Positions 15,334 to 63,730 of a stretch of 64,000 nt of DNA are shown here, piece after piece. The notes below the pieces were generated by a model that searched no databases, had not been told where the DNA came from, and saw only the letters and a list, made by a program, of their open reading frames with translations. The DNA lies in NCBI GenBank assembly GCA_964059195.1, contig CAXKWD010000007.1, forward strand, positions 26,485,023 through 26,549,022. The letters run 5' to 3'. Position numbers and translations under genes: made by a program. The stretch is from Ectobius pallidus. Lineage: Eukaryota > Arthropoda > Insecta > Blattodea > Ectobiidae. Every line of letters begins with the position of its first letter. Positions within the stretch are counted from its first letter, which is position 1.

Positions 15334-15488
15334 TAAGTTGTTTATGCTTGATTTGGTTAAGATTCATTAATCTGTGGTTCGTTTTAATCGTTTCATTTCG
15401 AACCTGTATACCCATTTGGCAGGACAAGATTACTTTCATTTCTTTAATTACTTATATTTACTAACTAAAACAATATAATCTAGGCCTA

Positions 15489-16384
15489 TCTATATAAAAA
15501 CGATTACATGTATGTATGTCCTTTATGCATTACTACACCATTCATCCGATCGCAATGAAAGTTTGGGAAGTTGTTGAGTACACTCCCGCGAAGGTTTCTG
15601 GCATAGTAAGTTACATTTTTAACTTTAGCTTTCATTCGCGAGTTATGAGTGAAAACGGGAAGAAAACGTGCATTTTTTGCGCATTCGAAGCGTCAGTTTT
15701 AAGTAATACATTTTAATTGTCAAATCAATGAACAGGTGGCTTTCTCTACTTTTGTCATACCTTGGAAATAAAAGTTTCGCGATCGTCTGAATGTTGTAAG
15801 CCCACGCTGGTCGATTCATTTGTTTGTAATGTCAAGGCACGCAGACATCTGAAGTTTTCACCCTAGACGGAAGAAGGATAATGAATGCAGGCCTAAATGG
15901 GTAAACATTGTTCGATTTGGACGAAACTCACTATGGAGGGGTTTTCTGAGCCAGGGAACTCGAATCTGAGGTTATTTTTCCCATGCTGCGCTTTCTAATC
16001 GTGGAATTCACTTCAAAGCCGTATTTATAGCTATTTCATTAATTAGGCCTATCAATCGTTTAGTTTAAACCTATGAATGATTTCCGTGCAAAGTGTTAAT
16101 AAATACATTATTTTAATTATTTTGCTCTCAATTTTTAATCTTCCGATTAATTATCGTTGGCGAAGCCACGGGGATCTGCTGTAAAGTATAAAAAGCTATA
16201 GGCCTATCTAGCGTTTTCTGAGGGAATAGTTTGAGTGTGATAGCCTAAGTCGTTCTTCCTCATTTCAAATTCTAAATACCTAGCCTATATAAAGACCTAG
16301 AGCTTGAAAATCGAAAGTCCTTAATAAGTTATTTTCGAATTTACAAAATACAAAACCCGAGCGACGCCGGGCCTTTCAAGCTAG
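15489..16384 (+). mobile_element. Non-autonomous Helitron-type element
   Basis: It starts TCTATATAAAAACGATTACA, the TC plus A/T-rich start typical of insect Helitrons. It ends with a CCCGAGCGACGCCGGG hairpin, then a short spacer and CTAG at 16381-16384. The preceding base is A and the next base is T, as expected of A^T insertion without target duplication. Its last 200 bp closely match 62815-63011, the end of another Helitron. The 63-codon open frame at 15516-15716 has no recognisable domain. No Rep/helicase is present. Confidence 0.75.
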
Positions 16385-16533
16385 TTAAGTATAAAATATT
16401 GATTCTTGCAATTTTTGTTAAAGGATGTCAGTGTTAATAAATATGTTTTACTTATTCCTTTTAATAAATGATTTACACAAAACATCTAGCAGTTGAGTAC
16501 ATAATCGCGGGTAAAGCCGCGTGCGCATACTAG
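16385..16533 (+). mobile_element. Helitron 3' end fragment
   Basis: The sequence CGCGGGTAAAGCCGCG forms a hairpin at 16506-16521 and is followed by CTAG at 16530-16533. That is the arrangement of a Helitron 3' end. The body upstream is short and the 5' end is not seen. Confidence 0.5.
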
Positions 16534-16954
16534 TATTTCATAGGCCTATAGGCCTAGGTAGCCTAGACTATATATGAAATCGAATCCATGTGAAAAATAT
16601 TAATATTTTATTTTACTATTAATATTAGTTTTTATTATTTAAAACACTAATAAAATCGGAATTGGTGTGTCATTAGAATAATAATTATAGACCTAAGTAC
16701 ATATTTTAAAATCCAGTTTACCCAGAAAACAATGTCAAGCTACGCCATGATAAACGGTAATAAAAAATCCGGGCTATTGAGAGCATTGTGGAGAGAAATA
16801 AATGACCAAGCCTAAATAAAGCTTGAGGGAACTTGCTAAGTGTAATTAAAGTTTTAAATAAATGAAATCCAAACTCGAAACGTCACAGTAGCTCAGCCAG
16901 CCCAAGCTCTGAAAAGCGAAGCGTACGCAAGCAGTGTATTCTTCATCTGCGTTA
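16534..16954. other. AT-rich spacer, no gene seen
   Basis: It holds an overlapping double octamer (TAGGCCTATAGGCCTA at 16541-16556) and a decayed TAGACCTA near 16688. No open frame or RNA gene is recognisable. Confidence 0.6.
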
Positions 16955-17265
16955 TACAGAGTGTTTCAAAAATACTTTTACAAACTTCGGGCAAGGGTTC
17001 CTTACACCAAAAGAAGGAAAACAAAGTTCATATGAACATAGGTCCCATAATCCACACAAAACTCATAACAAATGCTCGAAATGTCCTCCTCTTGCTTCTA
17101 GACATGCATGCACATGGCGAGCAGACATCCCGGATGAAGAAACTTTTCATCGACGTGTCATGGGAGCCTGCGAAACCATTCGACACCATCCCGGAGTATT
17201 TGAAAGGGTGCGACAGTCCATGATTCGACGAGTGCAGTATATATACATTCTCTTCTGCCCTTACT
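16955..17265. pseudogene. Rearranged mariner-like transposase remnant
   Basis: Two pieces of the C-terminal part of a mariner-like transposase lie head to head. On the minus strand, 17063-17112 reads HACLEARGGHFEHLL and a stop. On the plus strand, 17133-17240 reads DEETFHRRVMGACETIR followed by HHPGVFERVRQSMIRRV. In intact insect copies the VRQSMIRR segment runs straight into the ARGGHFEHLL tail on the same strand, so one piece has been inverted. The left boundary has the word acagagtgtttcaaaaat, often seen at the ends of such elements. Recognised from motifs. Confidence 0.6.
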
Positions 17266-17894: not shown

Positions 17895-18440
17895 TAATCG
17901 CCACCGTCACCATTATTTAGGCGCCACTTCTTTAATACTTTTTTTTTCCAAGAACTGCCTCTACCTGCTGCCATCCTAATCCTCTTCGACCTGTCAGTCA
18001 GTGAATAGAAAGGTAATTAGGCGTATTTACATTTGTCTGCAGTCCAGTACAATGTTGGCAAATAGGCCTACGTACCACAGCACGGTTACTTCACTTGGGA
18101 AGTGGTGAATGACAGCGGCAACACTGGGGAAACCCACGCGACTACTAGAACATCTGTTCTTTGTCGGTGTTGGTGTCGGTGCAGATTAGAGAACAATGCT
18201 GTTATATTTTTGTATATAGGCCTAGATGATGGTTTGAGACGAAGTCTTCTTAAAATGGCACAAACAGAAGGCCTACTAACTGGACACTCCAAACTATTGC
18301 CATTTTGGCACAACCCAGCTCAAATACAAAACCTTAAAAGGAATTTTTTAAAACGGCGTAAAAGCGAAATCGCGCAAAGCGGGACCGCGTAACACATAAC
18401 TAAACGCTGACTGGTTGCTATATAGTTATTTAACGACGGG
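17895..18440. other. No gene seen
   Basis: Short open frames on both strands lack recognisable domains. Two TAGGCCTA copies (18063, 18217) are present. Confidence 0.5.
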
Positions 18441-18821: not shown

Positions 18822-18830
18822 TATTATTAC

Positions 18831-21016: not shown

Positions 21017-22700
21017 ACATAGAAATTGTCTGTATTTCATTTCGTTTGTTATTAAATTGAATGGAGAGTCAATGGAGAGTGTTATCTGAAGAAATAAATA
21101 AGAATATAGTCGAGCAACAAAAAACTCATTGCAGCCAATAATGACTTCTATAGGCCTATCACGAAGCAAAGTGGCTAAAGTGAATAAATAGCTGACGTGC
21201 GAAAAGAGTGAGGCTTTAAATAAGAATCTGAAACGATTATTAATTGTTTTAATTAAAAGTTTCTGGTCATAATAACTTATCTAGCAAGCGAACAACATAC
21301 AGTAGTAATCTCAAAAGAAAGAAAAGGTTTTTCGTGTTGTTTAAGGCGCTTTTCTGTTTCGTGTTAAGGAAAATAAAAGCGATTTATTTAAGTTTTTTCC
21401 AGAAGATCGCTTTTTTACAGGTCTATTAACAGCCCGTGACGATTCCAAAAGATTAGTATAACAATTTTATCAATAAATTATCAACAGAAGTCGGGGACAT
21501 TCTGTCAATGATCAAACAACTCAGTAATGTTTGTAAATTAGTTTGCATTTGTAAACATCTCCTAGAACTCTGGGTTTGCTAACGAACAAGAGTCGGCCCA
21601 TTCTTTTTGCAGCCGACTGTACACTACATAATTGTTGTAGCTGAAGACTGCCATGCGCTGATGGCATGAGAAGACGGATGATAACGATGACAATAGTCGC
21701 TACAACTACAAAAAGGATGTTGAGAGGATATGACGAAAGAGTAAAATGAAAAGATATCATCGGAATATAGGACAACACATTAATTGATTGCAAGAGTGAA
21801 ATCTTCATTGCCACTCAACGGGCCTGGAGAATGATTCGTAAACTTACATTACAGCGATAACATGAATGCGACAGATTCGTAATGTTTATATTTCCTGTCT
21901 CCTGGGTTTCCTCACTAACCTATATGTCTCGGTTAGGGCTATAGAGCAGGAACATAATTATACACTTACAAAGTTCTGGTTTAAAATTTCTTGATGTATA
22001 ATCTAGGCCTACACAGATGAAATTAATCTTGAAGTTTTACATGAAATAGCTGATTGTTAAAAAAAAAAAATGCTATATAAGATATATAATTTGTTATCAA
22101 TATATGCGTGCCAGATTAATGTGCAAATAAATAAACCTGTAGATGACACAGTCAATTGATAAAATGTATGCCTATTTATGTAGAAATAACCGATGGACCA
22201 ACCGCGCAAACGCAGTAAATTGAACAATTAAAACAGTGATGATTACATTATTTGGAAAAGTTAAGCTTGTAGAATCTAACTCTACAATAGTTCAGTAAAA
22301 AATCATGTAAATTTAATTGCTATTAGCTTAAGTATTGGTTAGGTTGAAAATTGATTTCACAGTGAACGAGCGTCTTCGCTCTAGGGTAAATCCATTTCAA
22401 ATCAACCAATTTATTTTGAACTGTAACTCTAACAGTTCGATTAATTTTGAAAATAGTATGCAATTGTAGAAGTCATTAAAGAGTATGTCAGATTGAAAGG
22501 TTGTAAAGCAATTCATTGCAGAGGAAATAAATAATGAAATTCACCTGTTTCTCACCTAAGAATTTCACCCAAAGCTGTATGTCCCCCTTAAGAAATCCTC
22601 ATAAAAAGTTCACTAACTGTTCTACACAGCTTTTCACTGATGTTGAAATTACGACCTGTACCATTTGTGAATTCTGATGGCGTAAGTTTCCATAGTACCT
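21017..22700. other. AT-rich spacer, no gene seen
   Basis: A 97-codon minus-strand frame (21521-21814) has a hydrophobic stretch but no recognised domain or support. TAGGCCTA copies occur at 21151 and 22004. A 14-base hairpin word lies at 22368-22381. Confidence 0.5.
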
Positions 22701-23906
22701 CACTGATTGGAAATTGGAATTAAAGTGCTGGAAAATCGAAATAATGTGCAGGAAATTCGCAATAAAGTGGCGGAAATTCGAAATAAAGTACGGAAAATAC
22801 GTATTAAAGGGCGATTTATTCGAAATAAAGTGACGAGTATTCGAAGTTAAGTGCGGGAAACTCAATTTTTTGCGCACGGATATTCCGCAAACAAGATAAG
22901 TCGCCCACGGATAATCGAGAGTTTGCTGTATATATATATTTTGTCCATATTGTGAACTGTCAATAAGTTATCAAAAATTGTTTATCATTGCTTATGTGTT
23001 ATTTAGATTTTTAATACAAACAATGTAACTTGACATCTCCACTCAATAGTAATTTCGAAATTTTAGCTATATTTAAAAATTTCTAACTAAAAAACTAATA
23101 AGTCTCAGTGATGAAATTTTAACCACTTATTACAACAGAATAAAAGAATGTTTCCTGAAAATTTTGGATTTTTAAAGGTGTGCCTTCTGAAATATTTCAG
23201 ATAGAAAATACCTGATTTTAGAAAAATCGCATTATTTGAAGACCCATTAAATAAAGGACGTAATTCTCAGACCTGAAACTTTTTAGGGAGGTAGTAGGCC
23301 TATACTATAAACACTAGGCCTATATGCGGAAATATTTGAAGGTGAGTCATATTAATATTAAAAGGGAAGGTTTCTTATTATGAAGACGTTAAAATTTACC
23401 TATTTTTTGTGTATTTACAATTGAGTAGGCCTACATATACTGGACTGAAAATATTGTATGCCTACATTTGGTCTTTTACATGGTTTTTGTTTGAACCAAA
23501 TATTTTAACAAACAAAGAAGCTACAGCGTTTAACGCAAACCTCTGTAAAATGCAAAATAGGCTGACGCACCAATACAAAATGGCTGCTGAAAAAGAAGCT
23601 GAAGATCTAAAAAATTAATGATAACCTGTTTTCAACTCTCTGAATATAGTTAAACATAGGTAAAAAATAAATAAATTTTTTCAGCAACCATCATTGGTTG
23701 ATTTGATATGGATTGACCCTCCAGCAATTCATTTTCGCAAGGTTGTATTGAATTGACTAATATAATGTCCAAACTAATTAGCTTGAATTGTTATCATATG
23801 GAAGTTGAGTTCACAACGAATGAGCGCTCTCGCTCTAGAGATTGTTTGATAGGCCTACAAATTGCATTAAATTGATGCAAAGTCTGAATAATGAGCGTCT
23901 TCGCTT
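22368..23906. repeat. Three copies of a GAGCG-CGCTC hairpin word
   Basis: gagcgtcttcgctc at 22368-22381, gagcgctctcgctc at 23822-23835 and gagcgtcttcgctt at 23893-23906. The first two are preceded by ttcaca and a few bases then gaa, suggesting a dispersed short repeat rather than chance. Confidence 0.45.
22704..22865. repeat. 21-bp minisatellite, about 8 degenerate units
   Basis: Units follow the pattern gtgcggaaattcgaaataaa plus one base, with clear units beginning at 22725 and every 21 bases after. The 92-codon minus-strand frame across it (22599-22877) shows a seven-residue repeat only because the period is a multiple of three. No methionine context or domain supports a gene. Confidence 0.8.
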
Positions 23907-24954: not shown

Positions 24955-25035
24955 GGGTGGCCACGAGGTTGGATTTGAACCCAGGATCTCTTCCCTATTA
25001 CCCTATAGGCCTACCACCTCGCTCTAATTGGTTTT
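24955..25035 (-). repeat. tRNA-derived SINE head fragment
   Basis: The minus strand contains gggttcaaatcc, a B-box/T-arm word, and a gagcgaggtggtaggcc start region. One TAGGCCTA (25016) lies in the A-box side. Too decayed to be a tRNA gene. Confidence 0.45.
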
Positions 25036-25529
25036 TGTGCGTTCATGACGACTGTGACTACATTTCACAACAAAATCTAGATTATAGGGCAAGTATTCTT
25101 GTGGGCAACGAAAGAATATCATTCATATTTTAATCAAAATGTACATTTTGAAATTGGTATTTAAGTCATGTTATTTCGTTTTTATCTTAATACCTATTAA
25201 TTTTATAAAGAAATGTAGGTACCAGCCCCTATATCCTTAGCCATACGTTTTTAACTTTTACTAAACGGAACAACGTTAAAAATATATCCCTAGGTGCAAG
25301 GATTATAATTAGGAGCGAAATTCGTTCATATATAGGCCTAAGAATATATCCTGTAATTCTGTTACCTTAAAATACGTAATTCATGACAATAACATAGGCC
25401 TATAACTGACGGACATCTTATGTGGGTAAACAGGTTAACCAACACGACAAACCTCACTGGAAATATAGCCTAATATGGCACATTTCCGAAACGCGTGAAT
25501 TCGGTATGCCCTACAAAACTAATATCACT

Positions 25530-28417: not shown

Positions 28418-30783
28418 TGGATTGTGAGCAATGAACCCAATACATTGAGATCAACCAATGTAGCTCATTGAATAGTTAGTAAGCCTATTAATCCGCTTTG
28501 TAACTTATAAACAAAGATAAGAAAAACTATTACAAAGTGGCATTGTTCAGCCGTTTGTAAGACTAGGCTTACATATTAGGCCTATCTATGTTGATGTACT
28601 TATTTTGGTACTTCAGAAGTTAGTAGTGAAAACTGAGTTCTTAAGTTCACAAAACAATATCGTATATGGGCCTACTTCAGAAGCTCACGAAAGCATGTAA
28701 TTTGTAATAGCCTACAGGAACTGCTATACACATTGGACTTTCATAGGCCTAAGACAAAAAGTAAATTCATTTTTAGAAGGGGGCTGACGCGAATTTGCAA
28801 GCTCCCCTAGGCGTTAATCACGAGCTGTAGGCCTATTAACATTTACTTATAGGTCTAATGATTTTATTGTTGGTTTGGAGATTTTCTATGCGATATGCAT
28901 TCAAATAGGCCTATAATGTAGTCTTACAGCATCGTATGAGTCGGAAGAACTTCAAATAAATAAAAGCTTTGTTTTGTAATGAAATAAAATGAGATGCAGG
29001 CCCAATTGCTTTTCCTACATTCCTACTGTCTTATTGATTTGTTTTGATATTGAATGTGCTGTGTAAAAATCTTTTAATGTGGTAGAAAACAAGTCTTTTG
29101 ACATGAAATAACAAGTGCTGTAGTAGCAAAATCTGCCCAGGGGGGAAAAATAGTTTTATGCTGCACCCTAGGCTCCTCTCTAATGAGGCCCGCCTGGGAA
29201 GGTGGGGTTTAGGGTTTCGTCACAGAAGGAATTCAATATGAGACATAATAAACCTCGTGCTATTCAGTATATTGCTCCTAAACTAACATAAACGTTCCTA
29301 ACCTAACAACACGGCGGAGCTTGACTGGGGTGCAGCAAAAATCTATCTTTTGCCAAATATTTTAATTTATAGGCCTACTAAACATGCTAAATATTTGACA
29401 GAATTCAAAATTAAATAATACCAATATGGATTCAGTAACATCTATAGTTTAGAGTAAAATAGGAATAACTTATCAGGCTAGATTTCAAAAGATTAAACGC
29501 GATTTATCGATCACATTACTATAATAAGAATAAGTTCTATACACTACTTCGATTCGAAGATAAATCGGCATTGGTTCCGACTATGTAATAATAATAATAA
29601 AAATAACCTAAACAGAACTGCTTTGGTTCCGGTTACGTAATAAAAGAACACTACACAGAACTTATTTTAATGGGTCACCAAAACCTTTCTACACCGCCTA
29701 CTCTCGCATTGTTCTCTTGAATTGTCAATAAATTGTCAAATACGCAAACAAATAAGCAAATGCATAAATATATACCCTACATAAATAAAACACAGCCAAA
29801 GCAGAATAAAAAAGGACTAAGCATGAAAACATATGAATAGTCTACATAATATGATTATAGCTTAATAAGTTATGTTACTAAGACGTAAGCTACATGTGTT
29901 TTGCGCCATTTATTTTTTGTAGTTAATGAAATAAAACTACACTGTGCCTAAAGGCTATTATCTTTCATCAAGATTATTACGTGACAGTCCTAATGAACCA
30001 TTAAGATTTCGAAGCAGAAGTCATGCATAATCAAGTAACTTTTAAAACAGCTAGGTTACATTATTTAAATTAATCTGTTGAAAAGGTAGCTCATTTTTTC
30101 ACTCACCATTCCCAGTGAAGTCATGTTTCCCACTCAGTCGTAACATTTCTAGAGTCTTCACAATCTTCGGCAGGAACACAGTTTTTCATAGCCTCGGAAA
30201 AGAACGAATAGAACGTACATAAATACACAGAATTCTAAAACCTTATACATTTTAGCCAGGAGCAGCACATAGCATAATAAGTACTCCATGACGACTTATT
30301 TAAGTTCAATATGAAGGAGTTGTCAAAACCTGTAAAAGTATACAGATACTTTGGTAAACGTAAAGAATTTGTTACGGCCGTTTTAATTCGAATGCTTGAA
30401 TGATCCTGATCAATATACGAGTAGTTACCAATAAGCACTCCATATACAAGATCAGAACAATACTACATAACCTCAAACTTCACTCGCAAAAACAGAACTT
30501 CACGTCACGTGGGAATGAACTCGACTGGAGGGAGACTCGGTTCAAGTTTGCACACTCTACCGGCATAAACCTGATGTCGCTGCAGAAGTTTCTTCTCAGC
30601 CTACAATATGGACTCACTCACTCACCGAAGGGTGGGGGGACGTTAGGGTTACCGGTATATTGCTCATTCCTAGCTAATTCAAGTCTACTATCTTTATGTG
30701 TACATGCGTAAACACATTCATATGAGAGGTATCAAAATCCTAAAATTTTGATTTTACATTTGCTTAACAGACATTGTGATGAT
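28418..30783. other. Spacer, no gene seen
   Basis: Holds five TAGGCCTA copies (28577, 28744, 28828, 28916, 29370) and otherwise AT-rich sequence. The 67- and 103-codon frames at 30235-30711 show no domain. Confidence 0.5.
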
Positions 30784-31255: not shown

Positions 31256-31460
31256 AACAATGACGTAACCAGAAAATAATTGCGGGGAGGGTCGAAAGAG
31301 CCGGGGGGTCGGGGGTCCATCCCCAGAAAATTTTTAAATATTGAACTAATGAAAATCACATTTTATGCTATTTTAGCACAGAAAAACTAGTTAGGAAATT
31401 TGTTTACCATACTCGAAGACATGCCAATGTAGGCTAAATAAGAAATCATTAATAATAATA
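31256..31460 (+). repeat. Fragment of CAGTGGCGTAGC-type repeat
   Basis: The start tgacgtaaccagaaaataat matches the end of the element at 40214 (tggcgtagccagaaaataat). The sequence then runs into gaactaatgaaaatcacatt and ttagcacagaaaaactagtt blocks. These blocks recur at 32350-32460, 32500-32570 and 40310-40390. Confidence 0.7.
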
Positions 31461-43420: not shown

Positions 43421-43750
43421 CTAGACAACATTTCTCGGCCCTTTCACGTCCAAGTAATAGGCCTACCTTAGTTTCCGGAGAGGGATTAAGGGGCGATGGG
43501 CTTACCACTTGTCCCTCTGCCCTCTCTAGGAAAATAAGCGTAACAAAATTCACATAGGCAAACAGAAACCTCCACTTGGAGGCCCTTCGTGGGGGCATAG
43601 GATTCGAGAGAAATAGGGTTATGTTTGCCTTACTTAGCGAATCATGCACAGAAATAGGCCTATTTGTTGTGCCATAAAGGTAGCATAGCCTATGTAGCAT
43701 AAATGAGGGGTCTATTCGCAAACCCGGCAATCTCCATGTTGATAAAAGAT
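43421..43750. other. No gene seen
   Basis: The 107-codon minus-strand frame (43407-43730) overlaps the SINE and two TAGGCCTA copies and has no domain. Confidence 0.5.
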
Positions 43751-43751
43751 A

Positions 43752-43920
43752 GAGGTGCTATCTTCTATCGAAAGTTAAATGCATTTCCTATTTCATATTT
43801 AGTGTAGGCCTATGTGTAACAAATCCTACTTCCCACATAAGGGAGAAACCCAGATTTGCAACATTTGCATTAAATATGTTATAGGAAATGCATTACACTT
43901 TCATTAGAAGTTAGCACCTC
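43752..43920. mobile_element. Short TA-flanked hairpin MITE
   Basis: The ends GAGGTGCTATCTTCTAT and, inverted, GAGGTGCTAACTTCTAAT pair over about 40 bp with minor mismatches, flanked by TA on both sides. The 169-bp interior carries a TAGGCCTA at 43805. Confidence 0.75.
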
Positions 43921-45794: not shown

Positions 45795-46074
45795 GTCATA
45801 AGTATTATAAGTATTTGCGCATCGCATACCATAAATTATTTAGAGCAGCAGTAAATGTAGGCCTACTTTAAAGAAAATAGACCTACTGGTACCTTAAATA
45901 ATATATATAATCATTATTGTTTGCTAAATTAAGCGCAGATCTATAAACAAATATTGCAATTATAGAAGTATGTAGTCCGGTAATGACTATTTTGGCAAAT
46001 ATTATGCAATAAAACTAATTTTGAAACGGCTTTTTTGGTTTTGGCTAGTTCTTTTTTATTGGAAGATACCTTAC

Positions 46075-47097: not shown

Positions 47098-48995
47098 TTA
47101 TTAAGTGCCAGTATGGTACTTTATGAGATTGTGTGGGGGAGGAAAAATGTCTGTCCGTCTGTCCGTCCGTCCGTGTGTCTGTACGCGCTCTAACTCAAAT
47201 ACGCTTTGTCGAATTTTAATGAAACTTGGTATACACGTTTAAAATGTCCATGGGAAGAACCCTATTGATATTGGACCAAATCGGTTCACCGGTACCGGAG
47301 TAAAACCCAATTTAGTGTTTATTTTAAAGGCACCATAACTCACATACGCTTTATCAGATTTTCATGAAACTTGGAATACCTATTTATAATGTCCATGGGA
47401 AGACGTCTGTTGATGCTGGACCAAATCGGTTGGCCGGTACCGGAATAATACCCAATTTAGTGCCTTTTTATGGTATCATATAACAAAAGGCGCGGTAACT
47501 CAAATACGCTTTATCGGATTTTCATGAAACTTCGTATACTCATTTAAAGCGACCATGGCAATAAGCCTTTTGAGTTTGGACTTAATCGGTTGACCAGTAC
47601 CGAAATAAAGAGTAATTAACAGTCAAATTTATTATAATATTTTGGTTCAATTCGAAGCATTTTGATTGGCTCGCGGCCAACCAATCAGCGGGCGAGTCCC
47701 GTTACTAATGTAAATAATGTGGAATTCTGTAACAAGCCTTCAATTCCTCCTGAAACCTTCCTTAGTACAGGAGGGTTAAAAAGAAGGCACCTAATTCAAA
47801 TGCAAAATCAAATTCTCAGTTCTTTCTTATAGCGTCTTCAATAAATGACAGATTATAAAGCTTCCTTCAGTTGCCATGGACAGTTGCCATCTACATGAAA
47901 AACAAATGTTCCCATATGTACGATTATATATGAAATGCTGTTGTATAATGACTAATTATTTTGCTAAAATTGATTACAATTGAATTGAAGCATTGAATTT
48001 TACTTCAGCCTATGTCAGATTAATAATTCCTGACCTCTTAATAAATAAAAACATTAAGCTTTGAGAATGGTTAGGTTGGTACGCTGCTTCAACGAGGGCC
48101 TCATCCTAATTTATCACTCAGATATCGCGAATATTATAGTACTAATTAATGAAATAATTCAATATTGTAACATAATACATCTAGCAGGCACAATATATAG
48201 CCCAATTTCGAAATACGATGATTTTTCTTTTCTGTGAGCTACGACGAGATAGTATTCTCTGGTATTGGACACTGAACATTCGCAGTGTGGTTTGGTGTTG
48301 AGGTAAGATGCTTGTCTAATTAATTCATTGCTGAGGGGAAAAAATAATGAATTTTGCCCATCTCTCAAGAGATATCACGTTCGAGTCCACCCTAAAGCAA
48401 ATTTTTTTTTTTATTATTATCAATTGTGTTAAATTGAGCCTATTCCATTCTTATGTTGTATTTTGTCAATGTGCTTACATAAGTATTATATTTTTCTTTA
48501 AAAAAACTCGGAATTCATCGTCTTCCATTGACCTACAACATCAATCCTAAAGAATGATAACATTAGCCTATAAATGTTATTTCACGAACAGAAACTAGCT
48601 GTAAAGTTATTGCGTTGCGTTAAAATTGCATAAGCCTATACTCAGAACAAAACTTCATACCGCTACTTGGAACTATCCTCTTCTTATTGGTTTACTGTTC
48701 TATTTCATTGTCAATGCATTTTGTAAAATGTTTACATATTTTAAGAATTTATTATATCAGTGTGTACCAATATGAATTTAGGTTAAGAATCAAACTTTAG
48801 ACCTTTGTTCTTCCGTAAGCCCTACATGAATACTGTTATAATTATACCAAATAGAATACAAATATACAATACAAATCCTATATTGTATTTGTATAAACAG
48901 AAGGTACATTATTGTGAAATAACTGCAATTATAACTGATTTAAAAAGCATACTGGCACTTTGTTAGGCCTATATCAGTTTACCTGATTTTATTTC
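47098..48995 (+). mobile_element. GTGCCAGTATG-family element
   Basis: The head is aagtgccagtatggtacttt, then a (GTCC)n run. Three 145-175 bp tandem units follow, starting at aactcaaatacgctttgtcg and aactcacatacgctttatcag (first near 47192, 47336 and 47496). The tail is gcatactggcactttgtt near 48947-48964. The word GTGCCAGTATG is therefore present inverted near both ends. No transposase. It cuts the LINE at 46075-47094. Confidence 0.7.
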
Positions 48996-49079: not shown

Positions 49080-50195
49080 ATTAAGTGCCAGTATGGTACT
49101 TTATGAGATTGTGTGTGGGGACGGGAAAATGTCTGTCCGTTTGTCCGTCCGTCCATCTGTTCGTGTGTCTGTACGCGCGATAACTCAAATACGCTTTATC
49201 CAATTTTCATTAAAATTGGTATAGGCATTTGTAACGTCGATGGAAAGAAGCCTATTTATATTGGACCTATTCGGTTGACCGGTACCGGAATAATGCCCAA
49301 TTTAGTGCCTATTGTTATGGTAATATATTAGAAAAGCGCATTAACTCAAATACGCTTTATCGGATTTTCATGAAATTGGTATAGGCATTTATAACGTCGC
49401 TGGAAAGAAGCCTATTTATGTTGGACCTAATCGGTTGACCGGTATCGGAATAATGCCCAATTTAGTGCCTATTTTTATGGTAGGCCTAATATATTAGAAA
49501 AGCGCATTAACTCAAATACGCTTTATCGGATTTTCATGAAACTTGGCATCCGCATTTATGAAGTCCATATGTACAAGCCTATTGAATTTGGACCAAATCG
49601 GTTGAACGGTACCGAAATAACGACTATATCAATATTCATTTTGTGATGGATATAAAACGCTACAATATTATTTATTGCATGGCCCACAATATAATATTAA
49701 ATATAACGTAACAAATTGCTAATCGTTTATTGACATTGTTAATCAATGATTCATTTCTTCATAACGATGTCTATGTAAATAATAGTGTAAATAAAATATT
49801 TAAAACACAACTAGCCTTTGAATATTGATATTATATTGTGCATTCTATAGATATCGATAGCCTATCTACATTATTTTTTAACGTGAGTATTTTTTTTATT
49901 TGTTCCTGTGCAGCAATAGGCTATGCCTAATGTAATTACTGACAGATAGATTTTCAGATTGACTTTTTATTCATTCATAACCTATAAAGCTTCTTTAAAC
50001 TTGAAACAAAGGCCTATTGCATCATTAATATTATTGCCAGCGCATTTTGTTTTAGGAGTTTAACTAGGAATCTATTATAAAAATAACTTATTTTCTGCAT
50101 GAGCCTATCATAACTGCAATTATCGCTGATTAAAAAAAGCATTCTGGCACTTTGTTGTAGGCCTATCAGTTTACCTGATTTTATTACATTCGGCC
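49080..50195 (+). mobile_element. GTGCCAGTATG-family element
   Basis: Same architecture as the copy at 47098: head at 49080, GTCC run at 49130-49165, tandem units near 49183, 49334 and 49509, tail tctggcactttgttg near 50144-50158. Two of the tandem units differ by a TAGGCCTA insertion at 49481. Confidence 0.75.
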
Positions 50196-50572: not shown

Positions 50573-51847
50573 GATTCTTTCCATTCCTTTGGCAATTCTT
50601 CCTTTCTCCAAATCATAGGCTAAGATTGAGTATATGGATCTCGTAGTTTAATCTATCCCCACCTGCCTTCATTAATTCTGCTGGAATTTGGTCAACGCCT
50701 GGAGATTTGTGTTTTTAGTGTACCTATAGTCTATAGGCCTATAGCTGTATCTACGTCTACGCCAATCATCAAGGAGGATTGCGGGGAACCAGAGACAACA
50801 TCACAGCTTAAAACAAGGATGAGCATATATTTTATAACTCAATATTAACAAGAACAGGGGAAAAATCCCAAATATAAATCATAAACAAACTATTGTAGTA
50901 TTGAGAACATTATCCGGGCTTGTAGGCCGTGGTCAACTGTCAACTGGACTATGGCCTACAAGCCTACAATATTGACTCCAGCCGTGAAAGCCTACAATGT
51001 TTTATAAATTATTATAGGTTACACGCAGAAACCATAAACTCTCAAAAATGCTCTATGTTGTGATATTCAAAATAAAATAAGATAATATCAGCATGAACAA
51101 ATTCCTAAAAACAACAGATTTCTGGTTTACGTAATGTATACCATTAACAATTCCTAATCAGAATTTGAAATTGATCATTGCTTAAGAGGCCAAACTAGAA
51201 ACATTAATGAAGTCTGAGAATGTAATAGCTTGTAATTTTAAAAAGTTCAGAATCAGTAATTCTCAAGAGAGTAGTAGAAGATCAGTAACCATCAGTAATA
51301 GCTTAAAATTCAATGAAAGGGTAGCACTAACAATTTTTAATCTGAAGTTCAAAGTTATTATTGATTTAGAAGAAGACTAGAAACAATAATAGACCTAATG
51401 ATCCGCCTCTATAGTAGCCTACAATATTAATTGTTTATGTCGACTTCAACTTGTTTATTACTTAGCCAAGGACCCTGAAAATATTAGGCCACTTTAATAA
51501 CTTTATAATTAATCCTTAATTCAAATTTCTGGCATGTATAACTTGTAATTTAATTAATCCTCAGCATTAATGATTATAACGCTACGTTCACACTGAGGAA
51601 TTTGTTGCAGGGAAGTGAGTCCGGGCACATGTATGACAACCTATTTGCCACAAGTCGCAAAGCTATTGAACATATTCCTAGTCCTGTACAAACAGTTGAA
51701 TAAAATGCACCAGAAACAAGGTTCCACCACAAGTTCTTGTTTTCGCTCTCGGAGCGAAAACTTGGAACAGATCCCAGCGAAACTGCTCTTTGCGCATGTG
51801 CTGTAGTGATGTTCCTTGTGACAGTGGACTGACGACTGTCACTGTTT
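50573..51847. other. No gene seen
   Basis: One TAGGCCTA (50734). An inverted pair of tagtagcctac-like words lies near 50930-50990. The 97-codon minus-strand frame 51574-51867 has no recognised domain. Confidence 0.5.
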
Positions 51848-52204
51848 GTGATTATAGGGCAAGGCATTTAATGACCATAAAATAGAGAAAAAATGCATTT
51901 ATAACCTAAAAATAGTGAAAAAATGCCCCAAGTTTAAAAAGAGTGATTAATAAATTTACCATTATTACTTATAATTAGTTTTTTTGTAATGAATTGCTAA
52001 AAAAAATTATGACAGCGCGTTATATATGAATTTACATTACAAAACACACTTTTGTTACTAAAGAAGTAAGTAAATTTGTAGGCCTACTACTTGGACGGTT
52101 GCGTGCACATCGGCACAGTCGCATTTTCGTGCACATCGGCATAGTATTTTTATCTTGCAATATCATCGTGCTCATCGCCACTCATCCTTCGTAGGGGTGG
52201 ACAT

Positions 52205-54769: not shown

Positions 54770-55340
54770 ATGTTCACGCTGTTTTGTTTGACAAAATCGC
54801 GGATATTTTGCTATGGAGTGCTCTAAACAAAACATAAGACGACCTAGAAGTGTTGTCCCACACATTCGTAATACCTTTGTAGATAATTTGAATTTAGGCC
54901 TATAGGCACACTTTCTTCTTCTTCTTCCTTGAGTAGGTTCTGTCTAATACCAACTATTCGAGACTTATGCTTACGAGAAAATTGATGAAATAGGAGAGAT
55001 ATTAGAACATGTCATTACATCCATTGTTTAGTAATAGATCGTGCCGCGTCACAAAATCGAGCTGCTAGGATATTTTTTCAGTAACTTACCATTTCGAGAT
55101 TTTCTCTAGGTCTCCAAAATGAATTGCTGCTCTAGAAGTAATTCTTTGTAAGAGGATTCCCAGTGGCTCACCAACTCGGTAGAATTTTAAATCTACAACA
55201 GTGAACGTGATTTATGAACACAGAGATGCACTTGAATGCTTCTCAGAATTAGAGCAAAATAATAATAAAAAATAATAATAATCATAATCATAATAATAAT
55301 GAAAAATAATAATTTAATATTGTAAACATAATGAATGATG
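54770..55340. other. No gene seen
   Basis: AT-rich spacer with TAGGCCTA at 54895 and short AAT-rich runs near 55260-55310. Confidence 0.5.
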
Positions 55341-55344
55341 TGTA

Positions 55345-57083
55345 GGGTAAGGTGGTACAATTTCGAACGCTAAACGTATTTTCTTATTTTATGAACAAAA
55401 TAATCATAAGAAAAAACTATTTGTATTGTAATGACAAAGTTGGTAACCTAGTTGACCCTTCACAAAAATATGAAAGACACACAGCTGTTAATTTGGCCAT
55501 AGTAATCAATGTTTCATTTTCAAAAAATCGTTCGAAAATGTACCGCATAGGTACAATTCTGAACACCAGTAGGTACAATTTCGAACAGTGGCATTTTCCA
55601 CAAACAAACTGCTTTTTTCCTTCGGTTCCTACGCACAATTCATGATACCACGTTTTACATGACTGGCATCGTATCCAGTCGCCTTTCTTCATGTTGTAGT
55701 TCACTGTTGTAGTTGTACAACCACTGTTGTAGTTCAACAAACAAAAACCACACTCGTCTTCTTTTGTTGGAGCTGGGCTTTCCATTTTCTTTCGCGACAT
55801 CTAAATATTAAACAGAAAATAAAAAATAACTCCACTAATAGTTTAACCCGGCATCATTCGGATATATGACTATCATACCATGACTCGTACGTTAGATTTT
55901 ACTAACGTACTTTTTTCTCTTTTATCTATTAATTACAACTCAAACGTAGCCTATTGTTTAAACTAACAATTAGTTTATATGAAATCACATTTACACTTTG
56001 AAAAACACATTATTATTTTTTTATTATTTTTATTATTATTATAAATTACCTTTCAAAAATAAGATTTTTTAAATCACATAATTCAAATAATGTTTATAAA
56101 ACCCAATAAAAAAATTAAGACAATAGTGTAAGCATAATAATGATTATTTTGTTCTTATTATTACTGATATTATTTTGTTTACTATTATATTGTTATTGCT
56201 ATTATGTTGTTATTATTTTATCGTTATTATAGTATTTTAAAACAGAAAAAATAATGAAATCAAAATTTTGTTGAAAGGCCTTAGCACATTCTTACCGTTC
56301 ATAAACAGGGTCCAATGGAAGATGAACTTATAACATGTGCACCAATAAAACAAATACTCAGCACAATTTTATACTTACGTCAACATCTTATCTAAACTAT
56401 TATTGAAGGCTAATGGGTATTGCATATTGTTGACGTGTAATCATAACAACAGTGCAGAGGATGCACGAGTTGCTGCGTTAAAATAATACTGGTGTTGACG
56501 GATATAAGATATCCTTTTACACTTGAATTGCAGAAATAACAAACCCTGTATGTTTTTAAATGCATTGCCAGCTACCAGCTGTCTTATGCAATGCTTAAGC
56601 ATCTATTTCCAACAGAGCAAGTGATGTTCGAAATTGTACTGCTTACGTTCAGAATTGTACCTAAAAAGTGTTCGAATTTGTACCTCACGCAACCTTTTAT
56701 AAAATATTACACAGTTACACATTCCACTCACAAATGACACATGTTGTGCCAATGACATGCGTATCAAAGACCACGCAATTCGTTGGTATTAGTTAACAAT
56801 CGCTCCTCAACAACGTATTGCAGTAACACAACGTGGAATTAAAAGCAATTTTATAACGTGCCGTTTTTCAAGCATACTGTACATACCTTCGAATGGAAAA
56901 TAATATTTTTACTTCAGAATCAGACAGCTTAAAAGACCACTCTCGCGGAAACAGATACACAAAACAATCAGTATCAACGCCATGTAATTGAAAACAGGTT
57001 AACCAACATTTGAAACCCGAAAAAGGACCAAAATCTTACTCCGTTCAGAATTGTACCATGTTCGAAAATGTACCACCTTACCC
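55345..57083. mobile_element. pogo-like TA-targeting element, internally deleted
   Basis: The ends GGGTAAGGTGGTACAATTTC and, inverted, GGGTAAGGTGGTACATTTTC are flanked by TA (55343-55344 and 57084-57085). Copies of the subterminal word ggtacaatttcgaac recur at 55550-55590 and inverted at 56625-56690 and 57040, likely transposase-binding sites. The only coding remnant is the zinc-finger frame at 55417-55800. Because the ends are GG...CC next to TA, imprecise excision leaving two terminal bases per end would give TAGGCCTA. Confidence 0.75.
55417..55800 (-). CDS. PHD-like zinc-finger C-terminus of a pogo-like transposase (partial)
   Basis: 127 codons on the minus strand. Residues 17-57 show a cysteine/histidine series: CGFCLLNY, then WIRCQSCKTWYHELCVG and KKQFVCGKC. 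That is a PHD-type Cys4-His-Cys3 pattern, which is known at the C-terminus of some insect pogo/Tigger-like transposases. The DDE catalytic domain is missing. Just upstream of the first codon the minus strand reads tctgtttaatatttag, a good splice acceptor, so this is probably a last exon rather than a free gene. After the finger the frame runs into the inverted repeat, so the original stop may be lost. It could also be a captured host PHD finger. Confidence 0.6.
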   Translation of the reverse strand: MSRKKMESPAPTKEDECGFCLLNYNSGCTTTTVNYNMKKGDWIRCQSCKTWYHELCVGTEGKKQFVCGKCHCSKLYLLVFRIVPMRYIFERFFENETLITMAKLTAVCLSYFCEGSTRLPTLSLQYK

Positions 57084-57085
57084 TA

Positions 57086-57162
57086 TGTAGAGTCAGTAAC
57101 ATTTAAAATTACATATAGGCCTACATATTTGCAGATGCATCTAAAAATTCATTTATAGCCTA
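57086..57162. other. Spacer between pogo-like element and LINE
   Basis: Short AT-rich stretch with TAGGCCTA at 57116. The 5' limit of the LINE is not clear. Confidence 0.5.
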
Positions 57163-58905: not shown

Positions 58906-60453
58906 GTGAGAAGCCTTCTGCTTTATTTGAACTTAAAGAAGGGAACATGTGAAGATATACTGAATGCTGTTGCAAAAATGAATAATTCTGATTCCAGAGA
59001 TATTTATGAGCTTTCGAACAATATGTTAAAGAAAATTATCAATAATATTGTCTCTCCATTAACTTATTGTATTAATAAATGTTTTATTGAAGGTATATTT
59101 CCAAGTAAACTTAAATTAGCTAAAGTAATACCCGTTTATAAAACGGGCAACAAATTACAGCTTGAAAGTTACAGACCAATATCTCTTGTGCCAGTTTTTT
59201 CCAAATTATTTGAAATACTTATTCACAAACAACTATATTACTATTTTGAACAAGCTAATGTGCTTGCTACCGAACAGTTTGGGTTTAGAACTGGTAAATC
59301 TACCATTGACGCAGTTCGTCTACTTACTGATAACATATTGAATACCTTTGAAACTAAAAGCTTTGCTTGGGTCACATGTTGTGATCTAAGCAAGGCTTTT
59401 GACTGTGTAGATCATCGCATTCTGTTAAATAAGTTGTCATACTATGGTATTAATGGAACTGCTCATAAATTGTTTTCATCGTATTTATCCAATCGTAATC
59501 AAGTTGTTCAGATTGATGAGGAGGTCTCTGATATGGCAATAGTAAAGTCAGGGGTCCCACAGGGCTCTGTTCTGGGCCCGTTGCTTTTTCTTGTTATGGT
59601 TAATGATCTACCCTGTAATGCTGAATTGAAATCAATTTTATTTGCTGACGATACCACTTTTATTAGTAGGCCTAATCATGACAACTTTGAATGTCTTCAA
59701 TCTGATGTACAGAATAACTCAGTACAGATATCGCAATGGTTTAGAGCAAATAGCCTTCTTCTAAATGATACAAAAACACAAAATATAATCTTTCCTCTGA
59801 ATGATCTTGTTTTGCCACAGCCTTGTACTGATATAAAGCTCCTAGGAATTCACATTGACAGATTTTTAACTTGGGAAACTCATATTAAATTCTTATGTAG
59901 AAAACTGTCCAGGGTTGTATATTTATTTAGAAATCTAGTTAACTGTGTTCCCTCTGAATATGTAAGGATTTCTTATTTTGCTTATTTCCAGAGTGTAATT
60001 AATTATGGAATTTTAATATGGGGAAATAGTTCTCATACACAAGATTTATTAATATTGCAGAAGAAAATTATTAGAATCATAGCTCAAATACCTGATAGAA
60101 CACATTGCAAACCTTATTTTATAAAATATAAAATACTGACAATAGTAAATTTGTATATATACACTGTATTGTTATTTATGAAGCAAAATCGACATATGTA
60201 TAATGTAAGGTCAGAAATTCACAATCATAACACCAGAAACTGCCAGTTAATTGAAATTCCGCAGCACCGGCTAAATAAAACCATGCAGAGTTACTGTTAT
60301 GTAGGCATTAAACTATTTAATAAGTTGCCACAAGTTTTAACTAATTTACCATATAAATTATTTTGCAAGAGATTACACTCTTGGCTGATCGCCAATCCAT
60401 TTTATACTATGTGTGAATTTACTGATTTTAATTTTTCTGTTACTGTTATGTAA
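58906..60453 (+). CDS. LINE ORF2, reverse transcriptase domain
   Basis: 515 codons are open. Blocks by residue: KVIPVYKTG at 73-81, YRPISLVPVFSKLFE at 89-103, EQFGFRTGKSTIDA at 123-136, CDLSKAFDCVDHRI at 159-172 (Asp 160, first catalytic aspartate), SGVPQGSVLGPLL at 215-227 and FADDT at 246-250 (catalytic pair). Downstream are the thumb region with LLGIHIDRFLTWETHIKFLC and the C-terminal NYGILIWGN block. TAA stop at 60451-60453. The listed start is a GTG inside ORF2, so this is the RT part of a broken polyprotein. TAGGCCTA at 59667 encodes an Arg-Pro pair just after FADDTTFIS that looks like a 6-base in-frame insertion. The domain itself could still be active if supplied in frame. Confidence 0.88.
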   Translation: MRSLLLYLNLKKGTCEDILNAVAKMNNSDSRDIYELSNNMLKKIINNIVSPLTYCINKCFIEGIFPSKLKLAKVIPVYKTGNKLQLESYRPISLVPVFSKLFEILIHKQLYYYFEQANVLATEQFGFRTGKSTIDAVRLLTDNILNTFETKSFAWVTCCDLSKAFDCVDHRILLNKLSYYGINGTAHKLFSSYLSNRNQVVQIDEEVSDMAIVKSGVPQGSVLGPLLFLVMVNDLPCNAELKSILFADDTTFISRPNHDNFECLQSDVQNNSVQISQWFRANSLLLNDTKTQNIIFPLNDLVLPQPCTDIKLLGIHIDRFLTWETHIKFLCRKLSRVVYLFRNLVNCVPSEYVRISYFAYFQSVINYGILIWGNSSHTQDLLILQKKIIRIIAQIPDRTHCKPYFIKYKILTIVNLYIYTVLLFMKQNRHMYNVRSEIHNHNTRNCQLIEIPQHRLNKTMQSYCYVGIKLFNKLPQVLTNLPYKLFCKRLHSWLIANPFYTMCEFTDFNFSVTVM

Positions 60454-60973: not shown

Positions 60974-61616
60974 CAGACTAGACCTGCGATTTTAGGCTCT
61001 AAAATAGTTTTAGGCACCTAAAATAGGCTTTTAAAACAAGTAAGTAGGCTTTTAAAAGAGAAAATAGGCACTTAAAATATGCTTTAAAAATGTGTAAATC
61101 GATAGAAAATAGACTTTAAAATATTACAATATACACTTAAACTGTAAAATGGTCTATTTTTACTGCAAGAAACGTGGTATACCTATTCTTAACAGAATTA
61201 ACTGCAAAATTAGGTATCACGAAATATGTTCACTTAAACAAATGTTCTTTCACTGGTGACTTGACACCCTTTAATCCTCCCCCTCCCCCGTCAGTCAGCA
61301 TTCCTTTAGCGACAATTGCTTGGAATAATCAAGTTTCTGTGAAAAACCCAGCTCTGCTGTTCTGCTTTACATTGAGAGATGTCCATTATAAGATTGTAAA
61401 AATTACAAAAGTTGAATTTTATTTTAAATGCACAAAATAGGCATTTTTAGGCACTAAAATAGTAAAATAGGCTCTAAAGGTCCAAACAGGCATTTTAGGG
61501 CACTATAAAACTCTATAAATGTAAGTGATTTATCACGAAACATCCACATATTTAAACAAATTTCATGTTATTTCATAAGGAACAAAATAGGCATTTGCCT
61601 TAAAATTCCAGGTCTA
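60974..61616. mobile_element. hAT-type MITE rich in AAAATAGG words
   Basis: The ends TAGACCTGCGATTTTAGGC (from 60979) and, inverted, TAGACCTGGAATTTTAAGG enclose repeated aaaataggc words near both ends. attattac occurs at 60966-60973 and 61617-61624, an 8-bp duplication, with five extra bases (cagac) before the left end. The 88-codon frame at 61174-61440 has no recognised domain. End style resembles the element at 44796. Confidence 0.72.
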
Positions 61617-61953
61617 ATTATTACACTATTAAAGAAAACGTAGCACACGTTTCTAAGGAATTCCTTAGGTACTAGATGTTTCAATGTCTTAACAAGTATA
61701 GTACCCTGGCCAAACGTATGCAAATAGAGACAATATGGGCATTTCACTTTAGTTTCGATCAATCACAATACCTAATGGTTTGACATTAGGCTCACAAATC
61801 AGCTGTTGTAATGTAAACAAAATGTGTTGGGTTTTCCCAGCGTTCAAGCTAAAGCCATTGGCTTCAAACCAACGTATAACCTCACTAAATGAGTTCTTCA
61901 TTACGAGTTGTAGAACATTTACATCCCGCTTAGTATTATATAAAGTAGTTTCA
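61617..61953 (-). pseudogene. LINE RT fragment related to the 57-kb LINE
   Basis: The minus strand reads ETTLYNTKRDVNVLQ (just after the FADD motif), IRWFEANGFSLNAGKTQHIL and EPNVKPLGIVIDRN, then in another frame LARVLYLLRHLN. These are colinear with residues 249-340 of the RT at 58906-60453 but diverged and frameshifted. It is cut by the MITE on one side and the Helitron on the other. Confidence 0.75.
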
Positions 61954-63011
61954 TCTATATTAATAAAAATGAATTTCCAAAATGTATGACGGAGCATCAC
62001 TTGAGAACGGCTCGACCGATTTGGCTGATTTTTCTTTTGTTGTGTTCCTAATTGTCAGGACAAGGTTTGTATGAAAGAAAATTTTTGGAAAATCCATGGG
62101 AAAAGTTGGAAATGTGAAATGAGGCACAGTTAGAGAGTTCTGCTGTCAATTGTTTACATAACGAAAGTATTGTTTACGGTGTTCACATAGGGCTTTGGAA
62201 ACTATATTACAATACTATTAACAAATTCTGATACTATCGATGTAATTAATACATTTGTGAAAATAATTCTTGATGAATAAAATCCACGAAAATAAAGCAG
62301 TCAGATGACTTTCTCTACCCTCGACATGGAAAATATCATTTTCTCACTTCACATTTGGATGTAGAATAAGCGGTCGTATTGCAGGGACAACTTAAGTGTG
62401 TGCCAGTGAGTATGCTATATCGGAAGTCGGTAACAAATCCGATCCACTGATAGGCCTACATCACTCATAGCTGTAGGCTTTGTATTAGTTGAGAAAAATA
62501 GGCCTAGGGATGTTTATCAGAGGCCCTAAGCATCTAAAAGAAGACAAAATGGGATGGAACATTTTCAGTCCTATGCGCGCAGTATATTAGCCTATGTCCC
62601 AGGTTTTTGGGAAGAAAAGTATGAAAGTGATACTGAATTTCTTTTTTTACTTCAGCCCCGAAACGGTTGTATTGTAATATGAGAGTGAGAAATACAATTT
62701 TCTGTCAAGACAATACAATTTTATGTAACCGGAATTTACTATTCTTCTTATTTGCACTCCTCCCAGGCATGGTGTGTAGAAGCAATGGAATGCAACATTC
62801 GACATCCTCTATGAGCCATAAAAAGCTATATCTAGCGTTTTCTGAGGGAATAGTCTGAGTGTCATATGTCGTTCTTCCTCATTTCTAATTCTACATACAT
62901 ATTAGGCCTATAGGCTATAAGGACCTAGAGTTTCAACATCGAAAGTCCTCCATAAGTTAATTTCATATTACAAAATACAAAACCCGGGCGTCGCCGGGCC
63001 TTTTAAGCTAG
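61954..63011 (+). mobile_element. Non-autonomous Helitron-type element
   Basis: It starts TCTATATTAATAAAAATGAA and ends with hairpin CCCGGGCGTCGCCGGG, then ccttttaagctag, with CTAG at 63008-63011. The base before is A and the base after is T, the expected A^T insertion. The 3' 200 bp match 16185-16384. No Rep/helicase frame. TAGGCCTA copies at 62451, 62499 and 62903. Confidence 0.82.
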
Positions 63012-63099
63012 TCAGTAAATAAAACTGACTGATGAAATGTTATAAGAAAGATCGTTAATTATCATTTAAAAAAAAAAAAGCATTCATGGTACTCGGTGG

Positions 63100-63730
63100 C
63101 TTAGGCTTAATTTAGAAGATCCTGAATTCCTATGCATGCTCTCATTCGTTCATAAAGTTACGGTCAATTACAAGCAAAGCAATGTGGCTACCTTTATTCA
63201 TGCAAATAAAAAATACCTGGGACTATCTAGAACTGCAAATACCTGCCAGACGCCAGTGACTGTTGCAAAAGAAAGATGCGATCGAGTCGCAGAAGAAGCT
63301 CGCAGTTGTTTTCACTTAAACTGCGAAAACTTCTCCATTATGAATTCTCAATGAAATTTCCAATCACCTTGATGAAGTGTTGCAAACTTATCCCTTAGGC
63401 CTATTTGACAAGAAACGACTCAAAACTGAGCTAAGTATTTTATATTTCTGATCAGACTTCTCACAAAATTTTGCACAAGAGGCATACCGTGATTTCGTCT
63501 AGCTTTTAAAAGTCTTAGTGACGATACCTATGACAACTTCTGAGCCAGGGCGATGCATTTCAACCCTCAAAACAATTAAGACATTTTTAGGAATTCCCTG
63601 AGCCAGGTCCGCATGACAGCCCTTGCAATACTGTCTATAGAGAATCGACTACTTGGCCCTACTACAGATGGAAGGGTTCAATACAAAGGTGACTGAGAAG
63701 AAAAGGAGGATGGACTTCACTTTTCGCCAA
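63100..63730 (+). pseudogene. hAT transposase C-terminal relic
   Basis: Around 63500-63720 the frames read LVTIPMTTSEPGRCISTLKT (hAT dimerisation block) and, after a shift, NSLSQVRMTALAILSIENRL. These are the two consecutive blocks at the C-terminus of ZMYM-like hAT transposases. The open frame at 63136-63354 upstream is in the right place but shows no clear domain. Stops and frameshifts throughout. No element ends identified. Confidence 0.7.

Follow-up and report, generated by a model that had tools for sequence, protein, structure and literature searches.

Probable transposon excision scars at TA sites of the Ectobius pallidus genome

Introduction

Transposons of the Tc1/mariner type duplicate a TA dinucleotide at their target and, on excision, have their second strand cut a few bases in from each end, leaving 3' overhangs that non-homologous end joining turns into a footprint; for Sleeping Beauty this footprint is CAG, as outlined in parts of PMC8151067 and PMC2874221, the latter printing it as TAG(T/A)CTA. 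Passer, of the pogo superfamily, also duplicates TA, leaves footprints of 0-4 bp and is listed in Blattella germanica (a part of PMC9976928), and HIP1 of cyanobacteria is one palindromic octamer over-represented genome-wide (a part of PMC4390886). Here, we analysed the palindromic octamer TAGGCCTA in 64,000 nucleotides of Ectobius pallidus DNA (assembly GCA_964059195.1, contig CAXKWD010000007.1, positions 26,485,023 to 26,549,022), a stretch hereafter called the window. The octamer is GGCC plus one duplicated TA, inserted at a TA site, and it is most likely the end-joined excision scar of a TA-duplicating Tc1/mariner-type transposon with TA-GGC...GCC-TA tips (probability roughly 0.7).

The likeness to Sleeping Beauty and Tc1/mariner elements lies in the duplicated TA target, the three tip bases, the use of either central base and the end joining (parts of PMC8151067 and PMC2874221), and likeness to Tc1/mariner extends to a preference for AT-palindromic targets (a part of PMC7913693). 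Unlike for Sleeping Beauty, the dominant word here is GGCC/GGC and not CAG, there is an extra 4-base product, which self-complementary overhangs would explain, and one genome holds about 520,000 exact octamers with the source element not identified here. TA duplication and short footprints are shared with Passer and other pogo-superfamily elements. As with HIP1, a single palindromic octamer is found genome-wide; unlike HIP1, the word here comes from insertion and decays. The footprint of Minos from Drosophila hydei adds six bases to the site, made up of TA and four bases of the element end, and with such a four-base tip, unlike for the scars here, a large share of 3-base scars is not expected.

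Results

Insertion of the octamer at TA

Alignment of the window with itself gave pairs of related copies, one with TA and the other with TAGGCCTA, at 16199, 48964, 50158 and 49481. The sites at 48964 and 50158 are neighbouring TAs of one repeat family, two more homologs of the 49481 site show CA or a deletion instead, and the pair at 62903 aligned unclearly. In 279 kb of examined sequence, an exact plain-TA copy was found for 10 of the 23 octamer sites with tightly anchored homologs and for 11 of the 19 such sites of the sister 7-mer TAGGCTA/TAGCCTA, compared with 2 of 142 for control words (TACAGTA/TACTGTA 0/41, TACATGTA 0/9, others 2/92). A looser count, with raw and collapsed queries, comprised 59 alignments at 30 sites: 23 were filled, 13 exactly empty, one had the 7-mer and 22 had other lengths, eight of the latter being a one-base-changed octamer (four at full length, four with a 2-base indel in the flank). 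No exactly empty copy was seen in this count at the 23 sites of 12 control words. At 59667, the octamer amounts to two added residues in a reverse-transcriptase open reading frame (ORF), and these residues are missing from 28 of 28 aligned relatives (the best 28 of 7,914).

The preliminary description of this DNA had proposed that TA becomes TA-GGCC-TA and that related copies keep a plain TA. The second point holds where sites were readable, in the self-alignment and among anchored homologs, and the insertion is supported by the paired sites together with a repeat family with 13,452 empty copies (see below). The description had named a predominant origin by point substitution, or rarity of six-base differences between paired sites, as what would speak against insertion; the readable pairs displayed neither. 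The sites are listed below with coordinates and strand; scars are putative, octamer rows rest on exact match, and any extra basis is given in the row.

15481..15488 (.), TAGGCCTA scar
16044..16051 (.), TAGGCCTA scar; homologs with TA in collapsed-query alignment
16199..16206 (.), TAGGCCTA scar; TA in copy 62818-63041
16241..16247 (+), 7-mer scar TAGCCTA; TA in copy 62818-63041
16541..16548 (.), TAGGCCTA, first of doubled pair
16549..16556 (.), TAGGCCTA, second of doubled pair
18063..18070 (.), TAGGCCTA scar; homolog with TA in collapsed-query alignment
18217..18224 (.), TAGGCCTA scar; homolog with TA in collapsed-query alignment
21151..21158 (.), TAGGCCTA scar
22004..22011 (.), TAGGCCTA scar
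23295..23302 (.), TAGGCCTA scar
23315..23322 (.), TAGGCCTA scar
23426..23433 (.), TAGGCCTA scar
23850..23857 (.), TAGGCCTA scar
25006..25013 (.), TAGGCCTA scar
25333..25340 (.), TAGGCCTA scar; homolog with TA in collapsed-query alignment
25395..25402 (.), TAGGCCTA scar
28577..28584 (.), TAGGCCTA scar
28744..28751 (.), TAGGCCTA scar
28828..28835 (.), TAGGCCTA scar
28906..28913 (.), TAGGCCTA scar
29370..29377 (.), TAGGCCTA scar
31430..31436 (+), 7-mer scar TAGGCTA; TA in copy 32332-32463
35804..35811 (.), TAGGCCTA scar
36028..36035 (.), TAGGCCTA scar; homolog with TA in collapsed-query alignment
36134..36141 (.), TAGGCCTA scar
36921..36928 (.), TAGGCCTA scar
37354..37361 (.), TAGGCCTA scar
38199..38206 (.), TAGGCCTA scar
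39857..39864 (.), TAGGCCTA scar
40721..40728 (.), TAGGCCTA scar
42428..42435 (.), TAGGCCTA scar
42634..42641 (.), TAGGCCTA scar
42753..42760 (.), TAGGCCTA scar
43458..43465 (.), TAGGCCTA scar; homolog with TA in collapsed-query alignment
43655..43662 (.), TAGGCCTA scar
43805..43812 (.), TAGGCCTA scar
44017..44024 (.), TAGGCCTA scar
45858..45865 (.), TAGGCCTA scar
46702..46709 (.), TAGGCCTA scar
46984..46991 (.), TAGGCCTA scar
47031..47038 (.), TAGGCCTA scar
47082..47089 (.), TAGGCCTA scar
48964..48971 (.), TAGGCCTA scar, family with 13,452 empty copies; TA in copy 39892-40145
49481..49488 (.), TAGGCCTA scar; TA in 47191-47614 and 39492-39660, CA in 63824-63971, deletion in a fourth copy
50158..50165 (.), TAGGCCTA scar at the TA adjoining that of 48964, same family; copy 40045-40154 empty
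50734..50741 (.), TAGGCCTA scar
52079..52086 (.), TAGGCCTA scar within TAGGGCAAGGC element 51855-53129
54895..54902 (.), TAGGCCTA scar
57116..57123 (.), TAGGCCTA scar
59667..59674 (.), TAGGCCTA scar, in frame in the reverse-transcriptase ORF of a long interspersed nuclear element (LINE)
62451..62458 (.), TAGGCCTA scar; homolog with TA in collapsed-query alignment
62499..62506 (.), TAGGCCTA scar
62903..62910 (.), TAGGCCTA scar of doubled site; neither scar in the homolog at locus L138
62911..62917 (+), 7-mer scar TAGGCTA, second of doubled site
63396..63403 (.), TAGGCCTA scar

Doubled forms, reported previously, are thus present at 16541-16556 and 62903-62917; the window copy 16188-16415, which bears TAGCCTA, aligned unclearly with the second of these sites.

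Abundance and distribution

The window holds 53 exact copies of TAGGCCTA, from 15481 to 63403, which make it the top 8-mer by count, whereas 100 dinucleotide shuffles gave a mean of 0.58 and a maximum of 3, in agreement with an earlier count by eye of about 53 in 48 kb against about 0.5 predicted. The whole genome (2,124,618,226 bases, 410 contigs) contains 520,230 copies versus 14,707 for a reversed-pattern control, which includes CpG and is an imperfect match to the octamer. Extrapolated genome-wide from the 23,858 TAs of 264 kb, about 0.27% of all TAs would bear the octamer, and the window, with 0.83 per kb, is about 3.4 times denser than the genome average of 0.245 per kb. Spacing in the window's older DNA is about random (variance/mean 1.18 per kb), with a single long octamer-free gap of 6,434 bases (p 0.011), taken up largely by a 4.9-kb hAT-like insertion (30784-35709) that lacks the octamer. 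Four elements described previously as octamer-free are indeed so, with none found against the numbers predicted from the per-TA density elsewhere in the window: 20.3 in 155-15333, 2.8 in 18510-20911, 1.3 in 53173-54755 and 2.2 in 55345-57083.

The sister 7-mer was found at 28 sites in the older window DNA (6 expected) and at 59 in 200 kb of sampled genome (16.8 expected). Unlike the octamer, it is present in young elements, once in 18510-20911, once in 55345-57083 and three times in 30784-35709. One-mismatch variants of TAGGCCTA showed an excess of transitions (49 versus 25 expected), with transversions at 52 versus 50, and gave a mean decay of about 3%; the octamers thus decay, and the scars seem younger than many of the repeats bearing them.

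Elsewhere, a scan of IMG/VR for TAGGCCTA returned at least 120 loci, the five densest of which were inspected; one contig of this viral collection (L089:4561-4793) has seven copies in 233 bases, in mostly AT-rich contexts. The octamer also lies within a primer for the R2-like (BLAG) retrotransposon of Blattella germanica, as given in a part of PMC7650587. For one ORF, five protein hits included a single named one, from Periplaneta americana (44%). At G000:C1:932085-963076, eight TAGGCCTACTTGGTTA matches are spaced about 3.4-7.9 kb apart and have the look of a tandem array. A literature search on TAGGCCTA and related phrases turned up no description, as judged from listings.

Products at one TA of a repeat family

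The family of the 48964 site is retrotransposon-like, with a 3' end reading ...GCACTTTGT-TA-YATCAGTTTACC, beyond which the copies diverge. Its TA is exactly empty in 13,452 genomic copies, counted with a left flank three bases longer than that used for the insert catalogues. With exact flanks, 23 TA-NNNN-TA inserts were found at this TA (GGCC 15, CCGG 5, CTGG 2, AGCC 1), CTGG and AGCC being one-base variants of GGCC/CCGG, and 27 TA-NNN-TA inserts: GGC 7, GCC 3, CCG 3, CGG 1, ACT 5 (three of these within 47 kb of each other), AGT 1, and GGT, CTG, TTA, ATT, CCT, CCC and TAT once each. The five copies with TACCGGTA (at GCACTTTGT-TA-YATCAG, G000 family) are a second scar class beyond the preliminary description, and the two CTGG forms could be CpG decay.

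The first and third bases are complementary in 23 of the 27 three-base inserts, where 25% is expected (p 8e-11). This also holds for 13/17 without GGC/GCC (p 1e-5), and for 11/15 when, in addition, the clustered ACT copies are counted once (p 1e-4). Four-base classes were found only for tips whose last two bases are self-complementary (GGC, CCG), ACT and CAG being without any. At this TA, the products agree with end joining of one constant overhang, in some cases across a mismatch at the centre. In the proposed mechanism, the transposon would cut itself out and leave 3-base 3' overhangs. Where each side bears N1N2N3, a three-base pairing would require N1 complementary to N3 and leave a central mismatch which, settled either way, would give N1N2N1' and its reverse complement; pairing over two bases would require a self-complementary N2N3 and give the 4-base word N1N2N3N1'. 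Two GGC overhangs pairing over GC would then yield TAGGCCTA, and the same overhangs paired over three bases, with a central G:G mismatch, TAGGCTA or TAGCCTA. By the same rule, a CCG-tipped family would leave TACCGGTA and TAC(C/G)GTA, and an ACT-tipped family 3-base scars only; such other tip types also seem to leave scars. The joining rule for GGC predates the insert catalogues; its extension to CCG/ACT, like the N1:N3 statistic, was formulated with the catalogues in view.

In the 279 kb, the complementary 3-base classes displayed an R-TA...TA-Y flank bias of 298:153, versus 457:434 for the rest, and had empty partners in 19/205 cases versus 7/345 for the others. These partners were mostly those of GGC/GCC (10/19) and ACT/AGT (4/32), with 0/41 for CAG/CTG.

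A looser search for any TAGG at the family TA gave 87 copies, chance matches included (reversed control 22), of which 23 were read as having TAGGCCTA and 13 as having TAGGCTA. A tree was built from 40 TAGG copies (20 with the octamer, out of 22 such copies lying outside the window, all 13 with the 7-mer and seven others) and two window copies; the seven others, TAGG plus a deletion, are indistinguishable from point changes. The octamer label changed 14 times on this tree (shuffled mean 14.1) and the 7-mer label 10 times (shuffled 11.3). Octamer and 7-mer copies are thus intermixed, so that hits seem to recur, and, with the 13,452 empty copies, the empty TA is the ancestral state, the inserts resembling many rare hits.

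Target-site preference and the resident GGGTAAGG element

At the base preceding the TA (-1), octamers have A.40 and G.34, and 7-mers A.46 and G.30, versus A.33 and G.17 for all TAs. The flanks of both scar types are alike (R-TA-Y) and distinct from those of background TAs, the -1 base holding most of the signal. The window contains an element which we used for comparison and which is probably not the source:

55343..57085 (.), resident TA-duplicating element with GGGTAAGG ends

Its 21 insertions have A.45 and G.31 at -1 and differ from background (p 0.0085); compared with them, octamer flanks gave p 0.94 and 7-mer flanks p 1.0. The target preference of the scars matches that of this TA-inserting element.

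The GGGTAAGG...CCTTACCC element has a TA duplication and GG...CC tips in 20 of 20 fetched copies, drawn from 49 matches listed (40 scored of 2,257 candidates), and in the window copy. Divergence among nine copies is 0.2-0.7% in the main subfamily, 1.0-1.5% in that of the window copy and 3.0-3.6% between subfamilies, and the low values are signs of recent activity; most copies being far younger than the octamers with their decay of about 3%, we rejected an equal age of family and scars. The nine copies have no octamer (0/9) and seven share one TAGCCTA. A weak PHD-like match below the Pfam cut-off was obtained for the ORF pieces scanned, in which no transposase domain was found. At the family TA, the 3-base products predicted from a GGG tip numbered 0/27 (GGG) and 1/27 (CCC), both words breaking the N1:N3 rule, and TAGGGCCCTA is absent from the 279 kb. 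Since its GGG tip misfits the 3-base rule, the element is treated as a relative in behaviour and not as the source.

Search for a source element

Scans of 264-279 kb for terminal inverted repeats and boundaries, in line with the search for full-length elements suggested in the preliminary description, recovered CAG-tipped TA-duplicating families and no convincing GGC-tipped element. Loose TA-GGC...GCC-TA pairs numbered 14, and none was accepted as an element. The sole perfect pair lies inside the 15.2-kb palindrome at 155-15333, where every word pairs with its mirror; most others are two octamers. This octamer-free palindrome has GGCCCAGTTG tips and TAA at each flank, and its 4,696-bp arms are 100% complementary. 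The TA-GGG...CCC-TA elements at 44796-45794 and 30784-35709 were rejected as sources for their perfect 8-bp duplications outside the TA (GTCATAAG and GTGATGAT, respectively); they are hAT-like, with TAGGG tips (one TAGAG). A further TAGGG-tipped hAT-like element at L142:7575-8595 has the 8-bp duplication ATGATGAG. The TAGGGCAAGGC element at 51855-53129 was set aside for the 5 bp shared outside its TA. At 52192-52563 and L144:726-1651, GGGG tips adjoin TA.

No intact element was established at GCACTTTGT-TA among the candidates with foreign DNA after TAGG (L169-L171). At L169 and L171 the foreign DNA seems to stem from other insertions, which duplicated a longer stretch of family sequence, and at L170 the family tail was not seen within 5 kb. 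The Sleeping Beauty footprint reads TAC(A/T)GTA; TACAGTA/TACTGTA were rejected as such scars, none of 41 having an empty partner, and may be starts of CAG-tipped elements. The 279 kb also have an excess of TAACCTA/TAGGTTA (84 versus 38.8) whose flanks are biased the other way (Y..R 37, R..Y 9), possibly from telomere-like TTAGG repeats.

Discussion

Of the two alternatives offered in the preliminary description, an excision scar or a micro-insertion process, the product spectrum and the target preference favour the scar; the source transposon was not found, and the GG...CC ends suggested there should probably read GGC...GCC, with 3-base overhangs.

Several points weigh against this reading. 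Terminal-inverted-repeat and boundary scans of 264-279 kb, or 0.013% of the genome, found no convincing TA-GGC...GCC-TA element, and the sequenced sample examined held no site seen empty, occupied and scarred in copies linked by descent. The sole TA with a GGGTAAGG element (L230/L231), TA elsewhere and TAGCCTA in L171 has independent-looking hits, the L171 copy being 88.6% like the occupied copy versus 95.9% for an empty copy. CAG-tipped families are the commonest TA-duplicating elements in the sample, and TACAGTA/TACTGTA are in excess (85 versus 43.8) with R..Y flanks, yet are without empty partners. On the family tree, all label groups together changed 16 times versus 18.1 in shuffles, a value as low being reached in 26 of 200, and few branches are well supported. 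Finally, the GGCC/CCGG and 3-base words would equally result from a 2-base overhang (GG, CC) that loses one base.

Alternatively, the scars could come from resident GG...CC-tipped elements of the GGGTAAGG family type, cut two bases inside each end, their filled overhangs being joined as TA-GG-CC-TA with a base sometimes lost. We consider this unlikely. The family duplicates TA in every copy seen, has the flank preference of the scars, appears recently active beside octamers decayed by about 3%, and TAGGGCCTA was found 5 times against 1.3 expected. However, trimming would also yield TAGGTA/TACCTA, and shorter joints showed no clear enrichment (TAGGTA 146 versus 129, TAGCTA 52 versus 51); the six ACT/AGT scars have no 4-base ACGT partner, no second copy of the element was present in about 303 kb of fetched DNA, and no descent-linked scar was seen. 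The only counters to a 2-base overhang as such are the missing ACGT and the missing 2-base joints, in small numbers.

A transposon-free micro-insertion at TA, for instance by an endonuclease or a repair polymerase adding GGCC, would agree with the very uniform sequence and length of the scars and with a sample in which no source element was found. It is improbable, leaving unexplained both the reverse-complement-paired insert classes with N1:N3 complementarity and why scars and a TA-duplicating element share one target preference. The insect telomere unit is TTAGG, and priming by telomerase was rejected: it predicts T at -1, yet T is depleted there (.18 versus.34). A HIP1-type palindrome, under selection or tied to methylation and arising by substitution, would fit one exact palindrome being the commonest 8-mer, but it is extremely improbable, since the difference between paired copies, where readable, is exactly six bases and not one of substitutions, and since the octamer decays by transitions and is absent from young elements.

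As for the missing source of excision scars, every hop would deposit a scar with copy number unchanged, so scars may accumulate far past the count of living elements. It is very doubtful that a huge set of GGC-tipped elements underwent near-complete organised removal, for example through a TA-specific transposase that was domesticated and works in germ line or soma, so that nothing but scars remains in the assembly; if such removal were somatic, as for the internal eliminated sequences of ciliates, the germ-line genome would retain the elements.

The scars are insertions of 5 or 6 bp, and the 6-bp form keeps the reading frame. If they are excision scars, they would record, in a form that can be counted, how often elements now rare or gone moved by cut and paste. 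Transposition could then be tallied by tip family (GGC, CCG, ACT), its timing estimated from scar decay, and its sites mapped even where the elements themselves are missing. They would also offer a natural data set on how the sequence of an overhang chooses the end-joining product.

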